A DNA stretch of 62,528 nt from Chitinophagaceae bacterium (GTDB lineage: Bacteria > Bacteroidota > Bacteroidia > Chitinophagales > Chitinophagaceae), in assembly GCA_019638595.1 (NCBI GenBank), contig JAHBTJ010000033.1, positions 1-62,528 on the forward strand, in the 5' to 3' direction. The position numbers and the translations under genes were made by a program. Positions 1 through 46,694 of this stretch are shown in pieces (positions within the stretch are counted from its first letter, which is position 1; the number at the start of each line of letters is the position of its first letter). The notes under the pieces are model-generated. The model worked only from the letters and a program-made list of their open reading frames with translations, ran no database searches and was not told where the DNA came from.

Positions 1-705
1 GCGTTTAGTAAAGAAATCTTTAGGCGAAACTCCTGAATATTCTTTTACAATCCGATATAAGCTATTGGTGGTTAAAGCCAGCTTTTCGGCTATTGCATTT
101 ACAGAAGGTTGCTCCGTAAGATGCGTTTCCACCACTAGTTTGAATTCAATGAACTTTGACAGATTGGTGTTTAAAATATTAAGTGGTTCTTTGTTTTCGA
201 AATAAGCACTATTTAATTCTGCTAATAGTGAGTTCAGGTAAGCTAATATTATTTCTGTATCGGTTGGATGTTCGTCTATATGAAGTATCTGATTTAAAAT
301 TTCAAAAACTTTTCTTACCCTTTCTCTTGTAGCATTGTCAAAAATTATAGTCTGTGAGTTTAAAGGATTAACTAAAAAAGGATATTGTTGAGGTAATAAT
401 GCTAATGTGTTTTCATCAAATAATACTTTGAAATATTTAAGGTCGGCATTTTTAGGCGGAGGGGTAAAAAACTGATCAGGCATTGCAAAAAGCAAGTGCC
501 CTTCAGCAAGAGTAATGTCTTGCAAATCCAGATTGTAAGTAATAGAACCGCTGTCAATCAACACCATAAAATAAGAAGTTAGCTTGCGGGGTTGTAAAAG
601 CTTTTGCTGAATATCGGAAGAAAGATAAGGATTGTTGTTGGAAACAATCTTTATGCTCAACCTGTCGTTCTTTACGTTCTTAAGTTTTGAGTTTGTATCC
701 TGCAT
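1..705 (-). CDS. AraC-family transcriptional regulator, C-terminus cut by window edge
   Basis: An open frame starts at the ATG at 705 (MQDTNSKLKN...) and runs without a stop to base 1, giving 235 residues. The N-terminal part looks like a cupin-type effector domain (LAEGHLLFAMPDQFF near residues 75-90). The visible C-terminal part carries the first AraC helix-turn-helix (PSVNAIAEKLALTTNSLYR), followed by the KEYSGVSPKDF segment that begins the second half of the domain. The remaining helix lies outside the window. It is the last of a minus-strand set of accessory genes and is preceded by the attC-like repeat at 722-950. The regulated target cannot be told from this sequence. Confidence 0.85.
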   Translation of the reverse strand, partial: MQDTNSKLKNVKNDRLSIKIVSNNNPYLSSDIQQKLLQPRKLTSYFMVLIDSGSITYNLDLQDITLAEGHLLFAMPDQFFTPPPKNADLKYFKVLFDENTLALLPQQYPFLVNPLNSQTIIFDNATRERVRKVFEILNQILHIDEHPTDTEIILAYLNSLLAELNSAYFENKEPLNILNTNLSKFIEFKLVVETHLTEQPSVNAIAEKLALTTNSLYRIVKEYSGVSPKDFFTKR

Positions 706-721
706 ATTATCTGCTCAAAGT

Positions 722-950
722 TTGGTAAGTATCGCTTTACAATGACCGCCGGCGATGGCTCGGCATTTGTGTTCGTGACGTAATTTGAAAAACGTCTGCC
801 CGGAACTGAAGCCCGATTGAAAAACTGAAGTTGAAGTTAACAACTAAAAGCTAAATTGAAAAACGTCAAGCCCGAACAAAAATTGATAGCGATAAAATAT
901 TGAAGTTAACAACGTCCAGCCCCAAAAACGCCAAGCCCCATGTTGGTGGC
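722..950. repeat. attC-like dispersed element, copy R1
   Basis: This ~229 bp spacer follows the 3' end of the alkD-like gene. It shares ordered blocks with 1640-1861: TCGCTTTA (732), GTCTGCC (794), GATTGAAAA (815) and GTCCAGCCC (914), with nearly the same spacing. Between them the arms 757-771 and 923-937 pair 12 of 15, and two of the three mismatches become G-T wobbles on the bottom strand. It ends in GTTGGTGGC (942-950), the exact complement of 1665-1673 on the other side of the alkD-like gene. The layout resembles an integron cassette site, but the terminal heptamers do not match the RYYYAAC/GTTRRRY consensus here. Confidence 0.6.
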
Positions 951-987
951 ATGTGCTTCTTGTCTGCCGTTCAGTCGCCACAAAAAG

Positions 988-1629
988 TTATAGGTTTCGT
1001 TTATTGCTTTCAATGGCAATGAACTCCGGCAAATATTCAGGAGTACAACCTTTTGAAACCATTTTGCCTTTATACAGACCTGTTTTTTCTCCAAGTGCAA
1101 TACAACGATTTCTATATTTTTTTTCGTAAACACCAATCCAACCTGTTGTAAAGTTCATTGCCCATTGAACTTCGGCTTCTTCTTTTTCCATTTGTTTTTC
1201 AATGACAGTTAATAACTCTCCGCTATTGGGTTGTGTTTGTCCCATCCAACGCAAACGACCTTGATAATACCAATAAATTCGTCTTTTAAGCGAAGTTGAG
1301 CTGTTTTTCCAACTCTCAATCATTTCAATTGTCTTTTTGTCTTTGGTGAGTTGGTTTGCCATTAGCCAATCAATTAGTTGAAGTTTCTCATTTTCGCTGT
1401 GGTGCTTAATGTCAGCGACTAATTTGTCAATCACTTCTTCGGTTAGAAGTTTCTTGTCCATAATTAAGATTGCCAATTGTCGGGCAAAAAAATGTTTAGA
1501 TGACCAAAGTTCCATTGCCAATTGGTGGTCTTTTTTTATGTCTTTAGCAATGGTTCGTAAGTCGCCAAGTTTGGTACTCTTGTCGGTGATTTGAGTGAGT
1601 ATTTTTTGTGCTTTTGTTGAAAGTTTCAT
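988..1629 (-). CDS. AlkD-like DNA alkylation repair protein
   Basis: The 213-aa protein starts at ATG 1629. It is built of alpha-helical HEAT-like repeats and carries the family features LWSSKHFFARQLAILIMD (about 41-58), IESWKNSSTSLKRR and a C-terminal KGCTPEYLPEFI segment typical of the DNA alkylation repair (AlkD) family. Members excise N3- and N7-alkylpurines as DNA glycosylases in the cytoplasm. The length is close to the family norm (~220). It lies between two attC-like repeats and reads like a single-gene cassette. It is AT-richer than the glycan-uptake genes further on, which fits acquisition by transfer. Activity is inferred from the family only. Confidence 0.8.
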   Translation of the reverse strand: MKLSTKAQKILTQITDKSTKLGDLRTIAKDIKKDHQLAMELWSSKHFFARQLAILIMDKKLLTEEVIDKLVADIKHHSENEKLQLIDWLMANQLTKDKKTIEMIESWKNSSTSLKRRIYWYYQGRLRWMGQTQPNSGELLTVIEKQMEKEEAEVQWAMNFTTGWIGVYEKKYRNRCIALGEKTGLYKGKMVSKGCTPEYLPEFIAIESNKRNL

Positions 1630-1639
1630 CTCAATATAG

Positions 1640-1861
1640 TTTGTCTAACGGTCGCTTTATCATTGCCACCAACGAACAGGGCTTTATGCAGGTTGGGAAT
1701 TTGTATTCCGTCTGCCGATAACCGCTGCTGATTGAAAATATTTTGTTGAAATTAGGTATAAAAGCTGATAGTTATTCGTCTGACCGAACCGAAGCTGGGA
1801 TTTGCAAATAGCTGATGTTACAATGTCCAGCCCAACTTGCATAAAACCCAATGTTGGGTGC
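1640..1861. repeat. attC-like dispersed element, copy R2
   Basis: This spacer follows the 3' end of the AraC gene at 1873. It begins with GTCTAAC (1643-1649, fits RYYYAAC) and ends with GTTGGGT (1853-1859, fits GTTRRRY), the two core sites of integron attC sites. Inner arms 1679-1697 and 1831-1849 pair 17 of 19. The arm sequence is unrelated to that of copy R1, so the pairing and not the sequence is kept. Shared blocks are TCGCTTTA (1652), GTCTGCC (1710), GATTGAAAA (1730) and GTCCAGCCC (1825). At ~220 bp it is longer than classical attC sites. Confidence 0.6.
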
Positions 1862-1872
1862 TGGGCTTCCTT

Positions 1873-2775
1873 TCAATTAAACGATTGTCTGAACTCCAAA
1901 GGCGATTGGTTCGTCTTTGTCTTAAAAAGTTTGCTGAACGATTGAGGTTGCTCAAATCCTAATTCATAAGCAATTTCGCTTACCGACAAGTCTGTAGTTG
2001 ATAATTTTTCTTTCGCCTTTTCAATAAGTTTTTCGTGGATATGTTGCTGTGCTGACAAGCCTGTATTTTGTTTGAGCAAATCGGAAAAATACTTGCTTGA
2101 TAAATTTAATTGCTCGGCAAAATAGCTGATCGTTGGTAAACCGTTTTCCGCAATTTCAGTGTCAAAATATTGATACAATAGTTTTTCAAACTTGCTTAAT
2201 AAGGTATTATTGTTGGGCTTTCTTACAATAAATTGTCTGTTGTAATACCTGTTGCTGTAAGTAAGCAATAAGTCTAAGCTGGCAATGACTACATCTTGAC
2301 TGAATTTGTCAATGAGCAAATGATATTCGGCATAGATTTGTTGAAATATTTGTTCGATTGTTTTTTCTTCGTCCTCCGATAAAATTAAAGCCTCACTAAC
2401 TCCATATTCAAAAAATCCATAGTCCTTAATTTTTTTTGCCAAATCATAACCTTGCAAAAAATCAGGGTGTATGCTGATAGTCCAACCCAATGTAGGAAAC
2501 AAGATGCCTTGCTCTACAATACTCACTTGTTTGGGTGCAAAATACGACATCACGCCTTCATCAAAATCGTACATCGTTTGTCCGTATTGAAGTTTATTGG
2601 GGCAGTCTTTTTTTAATACGATTTGATAATAATCGTATATCAATTTTGTTTTCTCTTTCACTTCAACTTGTGGTATTTCCTCAAACTTCTTTATGCTGAA
2701 CAAAGGGTGTTTGGGCTTGCTCAATTTCATCAACTGATGACTTTGAGCAATAGTTTTTATATGAACTGTTTCCAC
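1873..2775 (-). CDS. AraC-family transcriptional regulator
   Basis: This is a 300-aa protein with a GTG start at 2775. The C-terminal ~95 residues form the two-helix AraC DNA-binding domain: FAEQLNLSSKYFSDLLK, then LSVSEIAYELGFEQPQSFSKLFK and the closing NQSPLEFR. The N-terminal ~190 residues look like a cupin-type sensing domain (FAPKQVSIVEQGILFP). The gene starts 41 bp after the stop of the upstream short-chain dehydrogenase gene on the same strand, so the two are probably co-transcribed and the regulator may control that enzyme. A tandem -7 box pair just upstream (2802-2819) suggests it can also be transcribed alone. The effector is unknown. Confidence 0.88.
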   Translation of the reverse strand: METVHIKTIAQSHQLMKLSKPKHPLFSIKKFEEIPQVEVKEKTKLIYDYYQIVLKKDCPNKLQYGQTMYDFDEGVMSYFAPKQVSIVEQGILFPTLGWTISIHPDFLQGYDLAKKIKDYGFFEYGVSEALILSEDEEKTIEQIFQQIYAEYHLLIDKFSQDVVIASLDLLLTYSNRYYNRQFIVRKPNNNTLLSKFEKLLYQYFDTEIAENGLPTISYFAEQLNLSSKYFSDLLKQNTGLSAQQHIHEKLIEKAKEKLSTTDLSVSEIAYELGFEQPQSFSKLFKTKTNQSPLEFRQSFN

Positions 2776-2801
2776 TATTCAGAATTTAAAATATTAAGGT
2801 A

Positions 2802-2819
2802 CAAAGTTAATCAAAGTTA
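2802..2819 (-). promoter_or_regulatory. tandem TAACTTTG boxes before the AraC gene
   Basis: On the minus strand TAACTTTG occurs twice, at 2819-2812 and 2809-2802, exactly 10 bp apart. Both match the Bacteroidota -7 consensus TAnnTTTG. The second lies 26 bp before the GTG start of the AraC gene. No convincing TTTG -33 box is visible, so this is only a candidate. The first copy overlaps the stop codon of the dehydrogenase gene. Confidence 0.35.
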
Positions 2820-3611
2820 ATGCGACATTAGTTTTCTCTTGCTTCGTGCAGAGTTGCGTGCTAATCTGGCTTGTGAAAACAAAGACATTATTTTAATCAT
2901 CATTCTATTTCTTCGTCCCGAGATGTGATAGGTTTTTCCTTTTTCAAATGCTTCCAGCATTTCACTTGCTACTTCTTCGGGTGTCTGAGTACTTGCACTA
3001 TTGGAGCTTGCCTTTCCCATATCATTGTTCATTTCTTTTGAGTTCATAAAACCCGAAGAGGTCAACCCAGGACTGAACAGCATAACCTTTACGTTATATG
3101 GTTGGCATTCTTCTGTCAGAGATTGTGTAAAGGTTCGTACAAAAGATTTTGATGCCGAATAAACAGCCATAAAAGCACTTGGGAAAAAACCTGCCATTGA
3201 CGATACATTAATGATATATCCACTTTTATTTTTAATCATTTCAGGCAGAAATAAATGGCAAAGACTTACCATTGCAGCGTTATTCAAAGCCATCATATTT
3301 AACTCGGCTTGCAGGTGGTTTTTATAAAATTCGCCCGTAGTACCCATTCCTGCATTGTTGATTAGAACATTTACTTGAATACCTCGTCTTTGACATTCAT
3401 CAAAAACAGTTTTCGGTGCTTCTGCCTTGCCCAAATCGGCAACGATGTATTGGGCGTTTATTTGATATTTTATTGTTAGTTCGTTACAAAGTGTTTTTAG
3501 TTTGTCCTCGTTTCGAGCTACTAAAAGCAAGTTATGTTTTATTGAGGCAAATTTGTAAGCAATAGCTTCGCCAATTCCTCCCGATGCACCTGTTATTAAT
3601 GTTACTTTCAT
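2817..3611 (-). CDS. short-chain dehydrogenase/reductase (SDR)
   Basis: The 264-aa classical SDR has a Rossmann fold with the cofactor motif TGASGGIG at the N-terminus, NNAG in strand 4, a catalytic Ser in NVSSMAG and the catalytic Tyr-Lys pair in YSASK. It should be a cytoplasmic NAD(P)-dependent oxidoreductase. The substrate is not predictable, though the fold is close to the ketoacyl-reductase-like DltE/YqjQ group. An upstream TTG at 3635 would add eight residues. I chose ATG 3611 because the TTG lies inside a 16-bp palindrome that looks like an operator. It is the first gene of the SDR-AraC pair. Confidence 0.88.
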   Translation of the reverse strand: MKVTLITGASGGIGEAIAYKFASIKHNLLLVARNEDKLKTLCNELTIKYQINAQYIVADLGKAEAPKTVFDECQRRGIQVNVLINNAGMGTTGEFYKNHLQAELNMMALNNAAMVSLCHLFLPEMIKNKSGYIINVSSMAGFFPSAFMAVYSASKSFVRTFTQSLTEECQPYNVKVMLFSPGLTSSGFMNSKEMNNDMGKASSNSASTQTPEEVASEMLEAFEKGKTYHISGRRNRMMIKIMSLFSQARLARNSARSKRKLMSH

Positions 3612-3628
3612 TTTATTCAAATTTTTAT

Positions 3629-3644
3629 GTCGCAAAGTTGCGAC
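3629..3644. promoter_or_regulatory. palindrome GTCGCAA-AG-TTGCGAC, candidate operator
   Basis: This is a perfect inverted repeat with 7-bp arms and a 2-bp centre, 17 bp upstream of the chosen SDR start. Its position would allow a repressor bound here to block transcription of the SDR-AraC pair. The binding protein is unknown; the neighbouring AraC protein is one candidate, although AraC sites are usually direct repeats. Confidence 0.45.
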
Positions 3645-3661
3645 TACCTGAAAAATTTAAA

Positions 3662-3697
3662 GTGTTCAAATGTCGGAATGTTGTGTTCAAATGTCGG
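3662..3697. repeat. 15-bp direct repeat, period 21
   Basis: GTGTTCAAATGTCGG occurs at 3662-3676 and again at 3683-3697. A 21-bp period puts the two copies on the same face of the helix, as for a dimeric AraC-type activator. They lie about 50-85 bp upstream of the SDR start, where an activator would bind. Confidence 0.45.
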
Positions 3698-3900
3698 GGT
3701 GGTGGGTGGGCTTGGTTTGTCTGTTTTATTGTGTCAGTTGATGTTTGTACGATGGTCGGTCGCCTTGCAGGCGATGTTGGTTCAACTCATAAATTTACGC
3801 TATTGCACAAAATCATTAAAATCATAAAGGGCTAAAAACAAGCCTTTTAGCATTATGCATTTTTATTATCACAATTGCGTCAATGCAATCCCGTGCTTTC

Positions 3901-3930
3901 GTTTACAAACGTTTATAAACATTTGTAAAC
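3901..3930. promoter_or_regulatory. 30-bp near-perfect palindrome
   Basis: The segment starts GTTTACAAA and ends TTTGTAAAC around a central GTTTATAAAC. Only one base pair of the 15 pairs is mismatched. It could be a double operator, since each third is itself a half-palindrome, or the end of a mobile element. A separate 7-bp hairpin (GCTAAAA/TTTTAGC) lies at 3831-3851. The rest of 3645-4190 shows no recognisable gene apart from the weak frame at 3949. Confidence 0.5.
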
Positions 3931-3948
3931 AATTAACCACACATAGCT

Positions 3949-4212
3949 TTGCACATCCAGCCCATGCTACTTTTACCGCCGCCTGCAGGATCCGCATACG
4001 AAAAGCCACCACACAGCTCAAACTTGTGCGTTAATAAAGAGACTACTAGTTTTAAATACGGATTCGGGTACTGGCAGGTTTCCCGGATCATACAGGCAAA
4101 CAGTTCTGCACGCACGACAAGGCAGTCAAAAGATGAGAAAGGATTAAAAAGTCCTTTCAAGGTAAGAAGTTTTTTAATAATGTCAAATATTCTACAGGGA
4201 TTTCGCTTTTAA
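3949..4212 (+). CDS. doubtful short ORF, interrupted by MITE
   Basis: An 87-codon frame has a tail (QGFRF) that lies inside the MITE starting at 4195. If the MITE and one target copy are removed, the frame reads on for about seven codons and stops. The stretch FKYGFGYWQVSRIIQANSSAR gives an impression of real protein, but I cannot name a family. There is no ribosome-binding site. It may be a relic at the edge of a mobile element or not coding at all; the opposite strand also has a 75-codon frame. Confidence 0.2.
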   Translation: MHIQPMLLLPPPAGSAYEKPPHSSNLCVNKETTSFKYGFGYWQVSRIIQANSSARTTRQSKDEKGLKSPFKVRSFLIMSNILQGFRF

Positions 4213-4546
4213 AGTAATGTTATACTCCAAAGGTAATGTCGTTCGTTCTGGTTCGGAATAAATGATGGCTTTTCCGTTATTCCGATTGAGCCAACACGAA
4301 CATTGTATTCAAATAGCTCTTTCGCGAAGGAGAACTCTTCTCACCGAAGGTAAATCTGCCAGGTAGTAGTGCAGATGTTGAGCATTAGTACAAAAGGCTG
4401 GCGGATTCCTCTCCCGCCGCAATACAGCTTTGGTTCAACACATATTCGGGCGGGATCGGAATGACGGCAAGCGTGTTTTATTACTATTACAGCACTCAAA
4501 GATGATACTATCGCCACTGATCTTTTTGCTAAAAACGAAATCCCTG
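4195..4546. mobile_element. MITE, 352 bp, copy E1
   Basis: The terminal inverted repeats are CAGGGATTTCGCTTTTA on the left and, read inward from the right, CAGGGATTTCGTTTTTA (16 of 17 identical). The element is flanked by a perfect 10-bp duplication AAATATTCTA at 4185-4194 and 4547-4556. It has no transposase frame, so it must be mobilised in trans. A second copy lies at 46083-46520. From memory, CAGGG ends and 8-10 bp duplications are typical of the ISAs1 family; this needs checking. It sits between the accessory region and the aminotransferase gene. It contains repeat A1 and a TCACCGAAGGTAAAT module (4341-4355). Confidence 0.85.
4413..4467. repeat. CCCGCC/GGCGGG repeat, copy A1
   Basis: This ~55-bp module starts CCCGCCGCAATA, has TTCAACACA in the middle and ends GGCGGGATCGGAATGACG. 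The ends can pair as a stem. Related copies lie at 46334-46389 (inside the second MITE) and 54981-55036. Confidence 0.7.
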
Positions 4547-4592
4547 AAATATTCTATTAAGAGTGTGGCTATCTTGAAAAAGAAATAATGTG

Positions 4593-5954
4593 CTATAGTA
4601 CTTGTTCAAAGGAAAGCTTTAAGACATGTATGACCAGGTCGCAATCTTCTTTTGTAATCACCAGCGAGGGACGCATGGTTAAAATATTTCCTTCAATTAC
4701 TTTCAGCGCTACTCCCTGCTGCAGGCAATGATACATGACTGCTTCTGCCAGGTGATCTGCTCTTTCTTTTGTATCCGGATCTTTTACCAGGTCTATGCCC
4801 AGGTGAAATCCACGACCGGCTATATTGCCGATAATAGGGAATTGTTGCTGCAGTTGCTTCAATTGTTCTACCAGGTAATTGCCCAGTTGCTCCGCGTTCT
4901 GTACCAACTGGTGTTTTTCAATATATTGGATAGCTGCGAGCCCCGCGGCGCAGGAGAGCGGGTTTTTTTCGTGCGTAAAATGGCCGATAGAACGGTGTTG
5001 CAGGATATTGTATTTTTCTTTTGTAACGATGCCTGCAAGCGGTACTATACCACCTCCCAATGATTTACCCAATACGAGTACATCGGGCGTTACAAAATGT
5101 TCGCTGGCAAACCATTTACCGGTTCTTCCCAATCCTTCTATAATTTCATCAAATATGAGGAAGATGCCGTAGTCGTCGCAGATCTTGCGTACCTGCCGCC
5201 AGTAATACTCCGATGGTACTACAGGGGTGGCAGATATGGGCTCCGCTATCAGCGCTGCAATATCAGGATTGCGGTGAAGTATATTGGTGATCTGGCGCAG
5301 ATACTCATCGTCCACCTGCTTTTGATCAGTAAAACCCCAGGGATTGCGGTAATAGTTGGGAAATTCCACGTGAAAAGCGCCGGGCATCATAGGGCCCTGC
5401 CCATTGGTAAAATGTTCTTCACCCCCAACGCTGGAGGCCTGGAAGCCATTGCCATGATAGGAGTCCCAATAGGAAATGGTTTTCCACCGGCCTGTCACCT
5501 GCTTGGCAAGGGCAATCGCCATTTCAATGGCCTCCGACCCGCCGGGGCAGAACAATACACGGTACAATCCTTCCGGTGTTATTTCAATGAGCTTTTTAGC
5601 CAGTTGAACAGCCGGTATATTGGTATAACGCCGTGGGGTAAACGCTAAATGATCCTGCAACTGCTGTATGACCGCGGCAATCACTTCGGGGTTCGAAAAT
5701 CCCGCGTTATGCACACCATTCCCGTGCAGATCGAGATATTTTTTCCCGTTCAGGTCGTATATATAAGCGCCTTCCGTTTTGCTCAGTACATTCATTACCG
5801 GCGTGGATAATGCCTGGTGCAGAAAGTATCTCGCATCTTCGTTTATCCAGTACCGTGTGTTCTCATCAAGCGATTGGCTGTATTGTTTTCTCAGGTCACT
5901 GCTGTTGTTGTCTCCCTGTTCGGTAGATACTTTTTTTGCGGGTGGGTTGTGCAT
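4593..5954 (-). CDS. class III PLP-dependent aminotransferase
   Basis: This is a 453-aa fold-type I enzyme of the class III (ornithine/GABA aminotransferase) family, the usual length. Visible features are CPGGSEA (137-142) for phosphate binding, the SYHGNG segment (165-170), IFDEIIEGLGRTGKWFA with the PLP-ring Asp269, and the Schiff-base Lys297 in LGKSLGGG. It is soluble and cytoplasmic. Annotated relatives include omega-amino-acid aminotransferases and the phosphonate enzyme PbfA; sequence alone does not decide the substrate. The gene stands alone on the minus strand, with the MITE downstream and a repeat-rich spacer upstream. Confidence 0.88.
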   Translation of the reverse strand: MHNPPAKKVSTEQGDNNSSDLRKQYSQSLDENTRYWINEDARYFLHQALSTPVMNVLSKTEGAYIYDLNGKKYLDLHGNGVHNAGFSNPEVIAAVIQQLQDHLAFTPRRYTNIPAVQLAKKLIEITPEGLYRVLFCPGGSEAIEMAIALAKQVTGRWKTISYWDSYHGNGFQASSVGGEEHFTNGQGPMMPGAFHVEFPNYYRNPWGFTDQKQVDDEYLRQITNILHRNPDIAALIAEPISATPVVPSEYYWRQVRKICDDYGIFLIFDEIIEGLGRTGKWFASEHFVTPDVLVLGKSLGGGIVPLAGIVTKEKYNILQHRSIGHFTHEKNPLSCAAGLAAIQYIEKHQLVQNAEQLGNYLVEQLKQLQQQFPIIGNIAGRGFHLGIDLVKDPDTKERADHLAEAVMYHCLQQGVALKVIEGNILTMRPSLVITKEDCDLVIHVLKLSFEQVL

Positions 5955-45908: not shown

Positions 45909-46082
45909 ATTGTTATTTCTCCTTCTTCTTAATAATGTAGCGTTGGAGCTAATAATTGATTCATAGCGGGGAGTAGAAGGTGCATAACAGCCGTTGAAGC
46001 GGATCAATCACTCATTCCTTCGTTACATCTCACTGCAATTTACGGCATTCATAATTAAATCCGGTTGGCAATACTTCCCGGG

Positions 46083-46520
46083 CAGGGGTTTCGCTTTTAG
46101 AAAAAAATAAAGGAAGAAGCTATCTCAACTTTCGGGTATACCCCATATATACAGGATCCACAACGAGGGCTTATTGTTTTTGCTATCAGCATTAAAGCAA
46201 GGCATACATTCACTCAACCTCTCACGCGTCACCCCGCCAGCATCAAAACCTGAGTTGGAGCAATGTTACGGCGGGAGCTTGCCCGCCGGGGCGGGAAGCA
46301 ATCCTCGTGTGTATGCATCTTTCAAACTGCGGACCCGCCGCCATATACCTTTAATTCCATGCAGGCTGTGGGCGGGTTCGCAGTAACGTTCGAGCGTGTT
46401 TGTATTTTACAACCAGTGCTAAAAATGTAGCGGATGCCTTTTGTTATGAAACCTCCTTTTATTGCTTAACCAAATGATATTGTCTTTTGAGTATAAAATA
46501 TTTTAAAAGCGAAATCCCTG
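46083..46520. mobile_element. MITE, 438 bp, copy E2
   Basis: The left end CAGGGGTTTCGCTTTTA and the right end, read inward, CAGGGATTTCGCTTTTA differ at one base. The flanks ACTTCCCGGG (46073-46082) and ACTTCCTGGG (46521-46530) are a 10-bp target duplication with one later change. The inside contains a GGCGGG-AGCTTG-CCCGCC hairpin near 46270-46287 and repeat A2. It has no coding frame. It belongs to the same family as 4195-4546 but is less recent. The 46521-46802 stretch beyond it is AT-rich and holds the promoter region of the third susC-like gene. Confidence 0.82.
46334..46389. repeat. CCCGCC/GGCGGG repeat, copy A2
   Basis: Starts CCCGCCGCCATATAC, then TTTAATTC, and ends GGCGGGTTCGCAGTAACG. 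Over about 56 bp it is closest to the copy at 54981-55036 and matches 4413-4467 less well. Confidence 0.7.
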
Positions 46521-46694
46521 ACTTCCTGGGTTGAGGTAAAGGTATCTGCTCTCGGCGGGCACTTTTTATAACCGGGCTACTGCGTATAAAGAAAATAGCA
46601 TTGTTTTTAGTTGCCTTACCAAATAGCTGGGGTGCTGTTCAAAAATTGCACAATCGTTTGATATAAATTTAGGCAATCGGTTGTTTTGTTTAGT

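Follow-up and report, generated by a model that had tools for sequence, protein, structure and literature searches.

The 352-bp element described here is a real MITE, inserted at its present site with duplication of ten target bases. It lies in the window, the whole 62,528-nt stretch of a Chitinophagaceae contig that was analysed (Table 1). The element is short and gene-less, is bounded by inverted repeats and a target duplication, faces an empty site in a congener, and has dispersed copies, which together are the marks of a MITE. Judged from its ends and its duplication, it is a non-autonomous element that very probably owed its movement to an ISAs1-family DDE transposase acting in trans, an enzyme that recognises CAGGGATTTCGCTTTTA ends and duplicates 10 bp of the target.

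The termini read CAGGG...CCCTG, and the 17-nt arms are 94% complementary (16/17). No ORF of at least 60 aa, with ATG, GTG or TTG as start, was found between 4195 and 4546. The original prediction had proposed a MITE with CAGGG ends of 17 bp differing at one position, no transposase frame in its 352 bp, and a perfect 10-bp duplication, and each of these points was borne out, the AAATATTCTA copies on both outer sides being identical at 10/10 positions. Its further suggestion that the insertion cuts a short frame on the left fails. The 87-aa frame concerned (3949–4212) is not a conserved gene: it has no match in Pfam, and its equivalent in the congener G004 is interrupted by stop codons.

Table 1. 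Features of the MITE and of a second, same-ended element; positions are those of the window.
Feature	Position	Strand	Remarks
MITE, 352 bp	4195..4546	.	inverted ends, duplication, other copies; no ORF of 60 aa or more
Left terminal inverted repeat CAGGGATTTCGCTTTTA	4195..4211	+	17 nt
Right terminal inverted repeat	4530..4546	-	16/17 identical to left repeat
Target duplication AAATATTCTA, left copy	4185..4194	+	10/10 identical to right copy
Target duplication AAATATTCTA, right copy	4547..4556	+	10/10 identical to left copy
Interior core of MITE (element positions about 79–288)	4273..4482	.	patchy similarity (roughly 70–90%) to repeats at other places in the genome and genus
Second CAGGG-ended element, 438 bp, same ends, largely different interior	46083..46520	.	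17-mer search and BLAST comparison
Target duplication ACTTCCCGGG of second element	46073..46082	+	9/10 to partner
Target duplication ACTTCCTGGG of second element	46521..46530	+	9/10 to partner

The ends are dispersed through the host genome (7.06 Mb searched, 52 contigs). Within the 62.5-kb window, the left-end 17-mer occurs four times when up to 3 mismatches are allowed (0.26 expected), and two of these occurrences belong to the 352-bp element and two to the 438-bp element. Genome-wide there are 20 exact and 8 one-mismatch matches (28 in all), and the reversed pattern gives none at up to 1 mismatch. With up to 3 mismatches the count is 77 versus 14, so the weaker matches include chance ones. 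The BLASTN comparison recommended in the original prediction gave 74 matches with E values up to 1, among which the 17-bp ends aligned to the other strand are weakest. The element is thus multi-copy, with two further full-length relatives at 93% (C12:205440) and 89% (C3:122368) identity as well as shorter and longer ones.

Eleven two-ended elements of 149 to 962 bp were accepted; one of the two ends of the 962-bp element carries 4 mismatches. A 44-bp pair in C2, whose duplication agrees at 7/10 positions, was set aside, as were five longer pairings in which one end had 4–5 mismatches. Several other 17-mer ends have no partner end in the stretch of DNA examined around them. Target duplications of 9–10 bp with at most 2 mismatches flank 8 of the 11 accepted copies, compared with 0 of 110 wrong pairings of flanks. 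The duplications are perfect in three copies (C27:4195, C33:12360, C51:138782), carry one mismatch in four (C27:46083, C12:205440, C3:122368, C30:34426) and two mismatches in one (C15:36792), and are absent at the remaining three (C41:216, C3:184209, C45:83629). The right flank of copy C30:34426 (L068 1724–1843) is itself a repeat, and at least 10 of the 12 genus genomes are among the matches listed for it, often many times.

The insertion can be dated relative to the congener G004. There the left flank continues through a single AAATATTCTA and the element is absent, which is the empty site, with one copy of the 10-mer, that the original prediction had asked to be sought. The left flank is 97.6% identical to G004 over 1,208 bp; most of this is a nearly identical tract ending near 3890, and the native flank from about 3890 to the insertion site is about 92% identical. 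The aminotransferase gene on the right is 89% identical. Immediately to the right of the AAATATTCTA of the empty site (L136), about 97 bp of G004 have no counterpart in the window's genome, so one of the two lineages has undergone a change on this side. These extra bases lend something to the idea that G004 once carried the element and lost it by precise excision. Such a loss is very unlikely, as an excision leaving exactly one 10-mer is a less simple account than absence throughout. In the congener G010 the intergenic part of this region does not align in the stretch examined and so does not help to choose between loss and absence.

Most simply, then, the insertion is younger than the split from G004. 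The suggestion that the element moved recently holds to the extent that the insertion is bounded as following this split (native flanks about 89–92% identical); the split, together with the 93% identity to the nearest copy, does not make the insertion very recent. The genus was also searched for empty sites of seven other copies, and the G004 match was inspected for four. None of these four (C3_122368, C33_12360, C27_46083, C15_36792) has a clean empty site in G004. For C3_122368 nothing in G004 matches the element, but about 160 bp to its left fail to align; for C33_12360 and C27_46083 a single flank aligns, and for C15_36792 the right flank does not align.

A separate observation concerns the start of the contig. 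Window positions 1–3890 are practically identical to G004, with 1 mismatch in the first 3.8 kb, and the rest that was compared, to 16,693, is about 89–92% identical. The break in identity falls about 300 bp left of the MITE. The near-identical 3.9-kb contig start may reflect either a recent exchange between species or a mixing of assemblies.

The empty site and the duplications also bear on whether the sequence is mobile at all. A repetitive extragenic element fixed in place, such as a palindromic regulatory or terminator repeat whose flanking 10-mers agree by coincidence, would account for the folding of the strand, which is better than that of shuffled sequences (z -4.8 as RNA, -4.2 as DNA). 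It would also suit the resemblance of the interior core to repeats found in the genus, frequently without the ends: among 37 loci matching some part of the MITE, 26 lack any end within 700 bp when up to 4 mismatches are allowed, 5 have one and 6 have both. The empty site in G004, however, contradicts a fixed repeat, and neither the perfect duplication at this site nor the excess of duplications over the control pairings fits with coincidence, so that we give this account almost no credence. An Rfam search with the element, as part of 3600–5200, gave no match at E up to 1, and a search of a plasmid collection in distant mode gave none. Scans of 4100–4650 returned two terminator-like sites on the - strand (shuffle mean 0.4), one of them inside the MITE, and one promoter-like site (shuffle mean 1.3). 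The gene right of the MITE encodes a class-III aminotransferase, and its frame, on the - strand, ends at 4593. The MITE might conceivably serve as a 3' structure of the aminotransferase transcript.

A likely partner was found in G010. This congener has three intact elements of 1234–1235 bp, all three with exactly CAGGGATTTCGCTTTTA at both ends and with perfect 10-bp duplications (GGGTTATGGT, CCGGTTGGAG and CAATCATTTC). For their 375-aa protein, the match to NF033564 (ISAs1 transposase) has E 3.9e-105 and that to PF13808 E 2e-24, and the frame is open in all three copies. The left end of the MITE agrees with both ends of the G010 elements at 17/17 positions and its right end at 16/17; the left 21 bp are identical to the element end that lies by the 3' terminus of the transposase gene. 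The MITE combines CAGGG ends in the 14–22-bp range and a duplication of about 10 bp, which are features of ISAs1 elements as excerpted from PMC11946415, with a same-ended autonomous element in a related genome. Comparison of the ends with those of full-length ISAs1 elements, planned for the same genome, thus found its match in a congener instead, and the guess of an ISAs1-type mobilisation is supported by both the ends and the duplication length, the movement itself being inferred. Beyond 17–21 bp, comparison by eye over 60 bp at each end showed no likeness between the MITE and the G010 element, so the latter need not be the direct parent of the MITE. The enzyme that recognised the CAGGGATTTCGCTTTTA ends of the MITE and left the 10-bp duplication was very probably this transposase or a near relation of it that has since been lost from the genome or is missing from the assembly.

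The match to the G010 type is specific. As a control, the ISAs1 elements of G237, which belongs to a different genus of this family, end in the CAGGGCAGACGC type and show 10-bp duplications in 6/6 cases, so it is the G010 type alone that agrees with the MITE past CAGGG. Two ISAs1 copies in G235 sit at contig ends. Among 195 sampled genomes of the family, a sample that evidently did not include G010, five have a match to NF033564 at E<=0.001 and three pass the cut-off of NF033564 itself. In a genome-contig collection, the 21-mer end occurs in 15 stretches, of which 10 are from Parapedobacter soli (apparently near contig ends), 3 from ACE_NR_BACT8, 1 from ACE_BAC13 and 1 from Sphingobacterium gobiense; viral contigs gave 0 exact matches. 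Six of the 15 stretches, including 3 of the 10 from Parapedobacter soli, were searched for a transposase. In L134 (ACE_NR_BACT8) an ISAs1 transposase is whole at the locus with the 21-mer, and in Sphingobacterium gobiense the 21-mer directly adjoins a 55-aa ISAs1 C-terminal match at 67% identity. No transposase was found near the 21-mer in the DNA examined from the Chitinophagaceae MAG ACE_BAC13 and the 3 Parapedobacter soli loci.

The MITE's own genome gave no ISAs1 transposase match to PF13808, NF033564 or the G010 transposase, and an autonomous ISAs1 partner there was rejected on this ground; a repeat may be missing from the 52-contig assembly. Since a MITE can outlive its partner, the missing partner lowers certainty but leaves the kind of element unaffected. 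The same result gives some room to a transposase of another family (e.g. IS4-type) that accepts such ends. We consider such an enzyme improbable, for the whole 17 bp, beyond CAGGG, match the ISAs1 element of the genus, the duplication has the same length, and at eleven own-genome loci (nine unpaired ends and two long forms) inspection by eye of the stop-to-stop frames of at least 110 aa revealed no recognisable transposase.

ISAs1 mobilisation remains preferred. Across the genus, the 17-mer at up to 1 mismatch is present in 7 of 12 genomes and a transposase match in 3 of 12, so the ends are commoner than the enzyme. The transposase is intact in G010, is 44% identical with a stop in G003, and is decayed in G005. 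An intact partner of the G010 type was found in none of the other six genomes holding the 17-mer; G000, G004, G007 and G008 are without a transposase match. At the G003 and G005 loci searched (L113, L114, L117, L119), no good copy of the MITE ends was seen. With no ISAs1 transposase detectable in the window's assembly, the MITE family is probably stranded there at present.

The elements sharing these ends differ in their interiors, as compared from BLAST tables. The 352- and 438-bp elements agree in their ends, over 49 bp at one terminus (83.7%, 17-mer included) and over a 73-bp stretch (71%). The duplication of the 438-bp element reads ACTTCC[C/T]GGG. Over its length this element matches C51:138782 at 91%, and it also matches parts of several others; because it resembles C51:138782 rather than the 352-bp interior, the family comprises at least two subfamilies. 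Two short forms, each 149 bp long (C33, C45), correspond to positions 3–65 and 251–352 of the 352-bp element. Two long forms, C41:216-1177 (962 bp; L004 216-1177) and C3:184209-185046 (838 bp; L086 1501-2338), hold other sequence between the MITE ends, part of which, GTAGCCCCATACGGGGC included, is common to both (by eye). These were rejected as autonomous elements, as no stop-to-stop frame above 119 aa lies in or reaches into either, and neither has a duplication. The interior core is similar to a repeat that is dispersed in the genus, often without CAGGG ends (e.g. L011, L012, L018, L025, L029). When borders of the interior repeat itself were sought at its copies as the CGTCATTCCG type, they appeared at 1 of 16 loci, and its borders were not found. 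We tentatively suggest, with considerable doubt, that the genus might carry a shell of ISAs1-type ends whose interiors have been repeatedly exchanged with other genomic repeats. One transposase would then move several unrelated interiors (at least two subfamilies and the 838- and 962-bp long forms), and in most of the species with the shell, it would outlive the transposase.

Several known systems are comparable. The ISAs1 insertion sequences of G010 share the CAGGGATTTCGCTTTTA ends and the 10-bp duplication with the MITE, and differ from it in being 1234–1235 bp long with a transposase gene. The MITEs of Porphyromonas gingivalis (BrickBuilt, MITE239, MITEPgRS) also belong to Bacteroidota and have ends matching full-length insertion sequences; according to extracts of PMC4596501, those insertion sequences are of the IS5 family with other ends. 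MITEPye1 of Paracoccus yeei is likewise gene-less, with insertion-sequence ends, direct repeats and a strong fold, whereas its partner is of the IS1182 family (PMC11578231, in extract). For Anabaena sp. 90, the accessible portion of PMC3542288 lists one ISAs1 element and MITE ends that resemble no insertion sequence of that genome. Three MITEs are reported from Aeromonas in the excerpted text of PMC5756416. A term search of a review of prokaryotic MITEs (PMC10969869) did not find ISAs1 named, and the passages of PMC9208149 and PMC3281130 link no MITE to it. A partial literature search, by titles and the beginnings of abstracts, found no ISAs1-linked MITE and no description of the present family, in agreement with the original statement that none was known.

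As far as could be searched, the MITE family is therefore new; the kind of element is well known, and its biology is that of ordinary mobile elements. The MITEs of Porphyromonas gingivalis are tied to IS5-family elements (PMC4596501, in the parts available), in contrast to the likely ISAs1 partner here. Through the matching ends, the duplication length and the empty site, the present analysis adds a Chitinophagaceae MITE family with a likely ISAs1 partner. The MITE and the same-ended full-length element, which reside in different species, form a natural pair for testing mobilisation in trans and the loss of partners.
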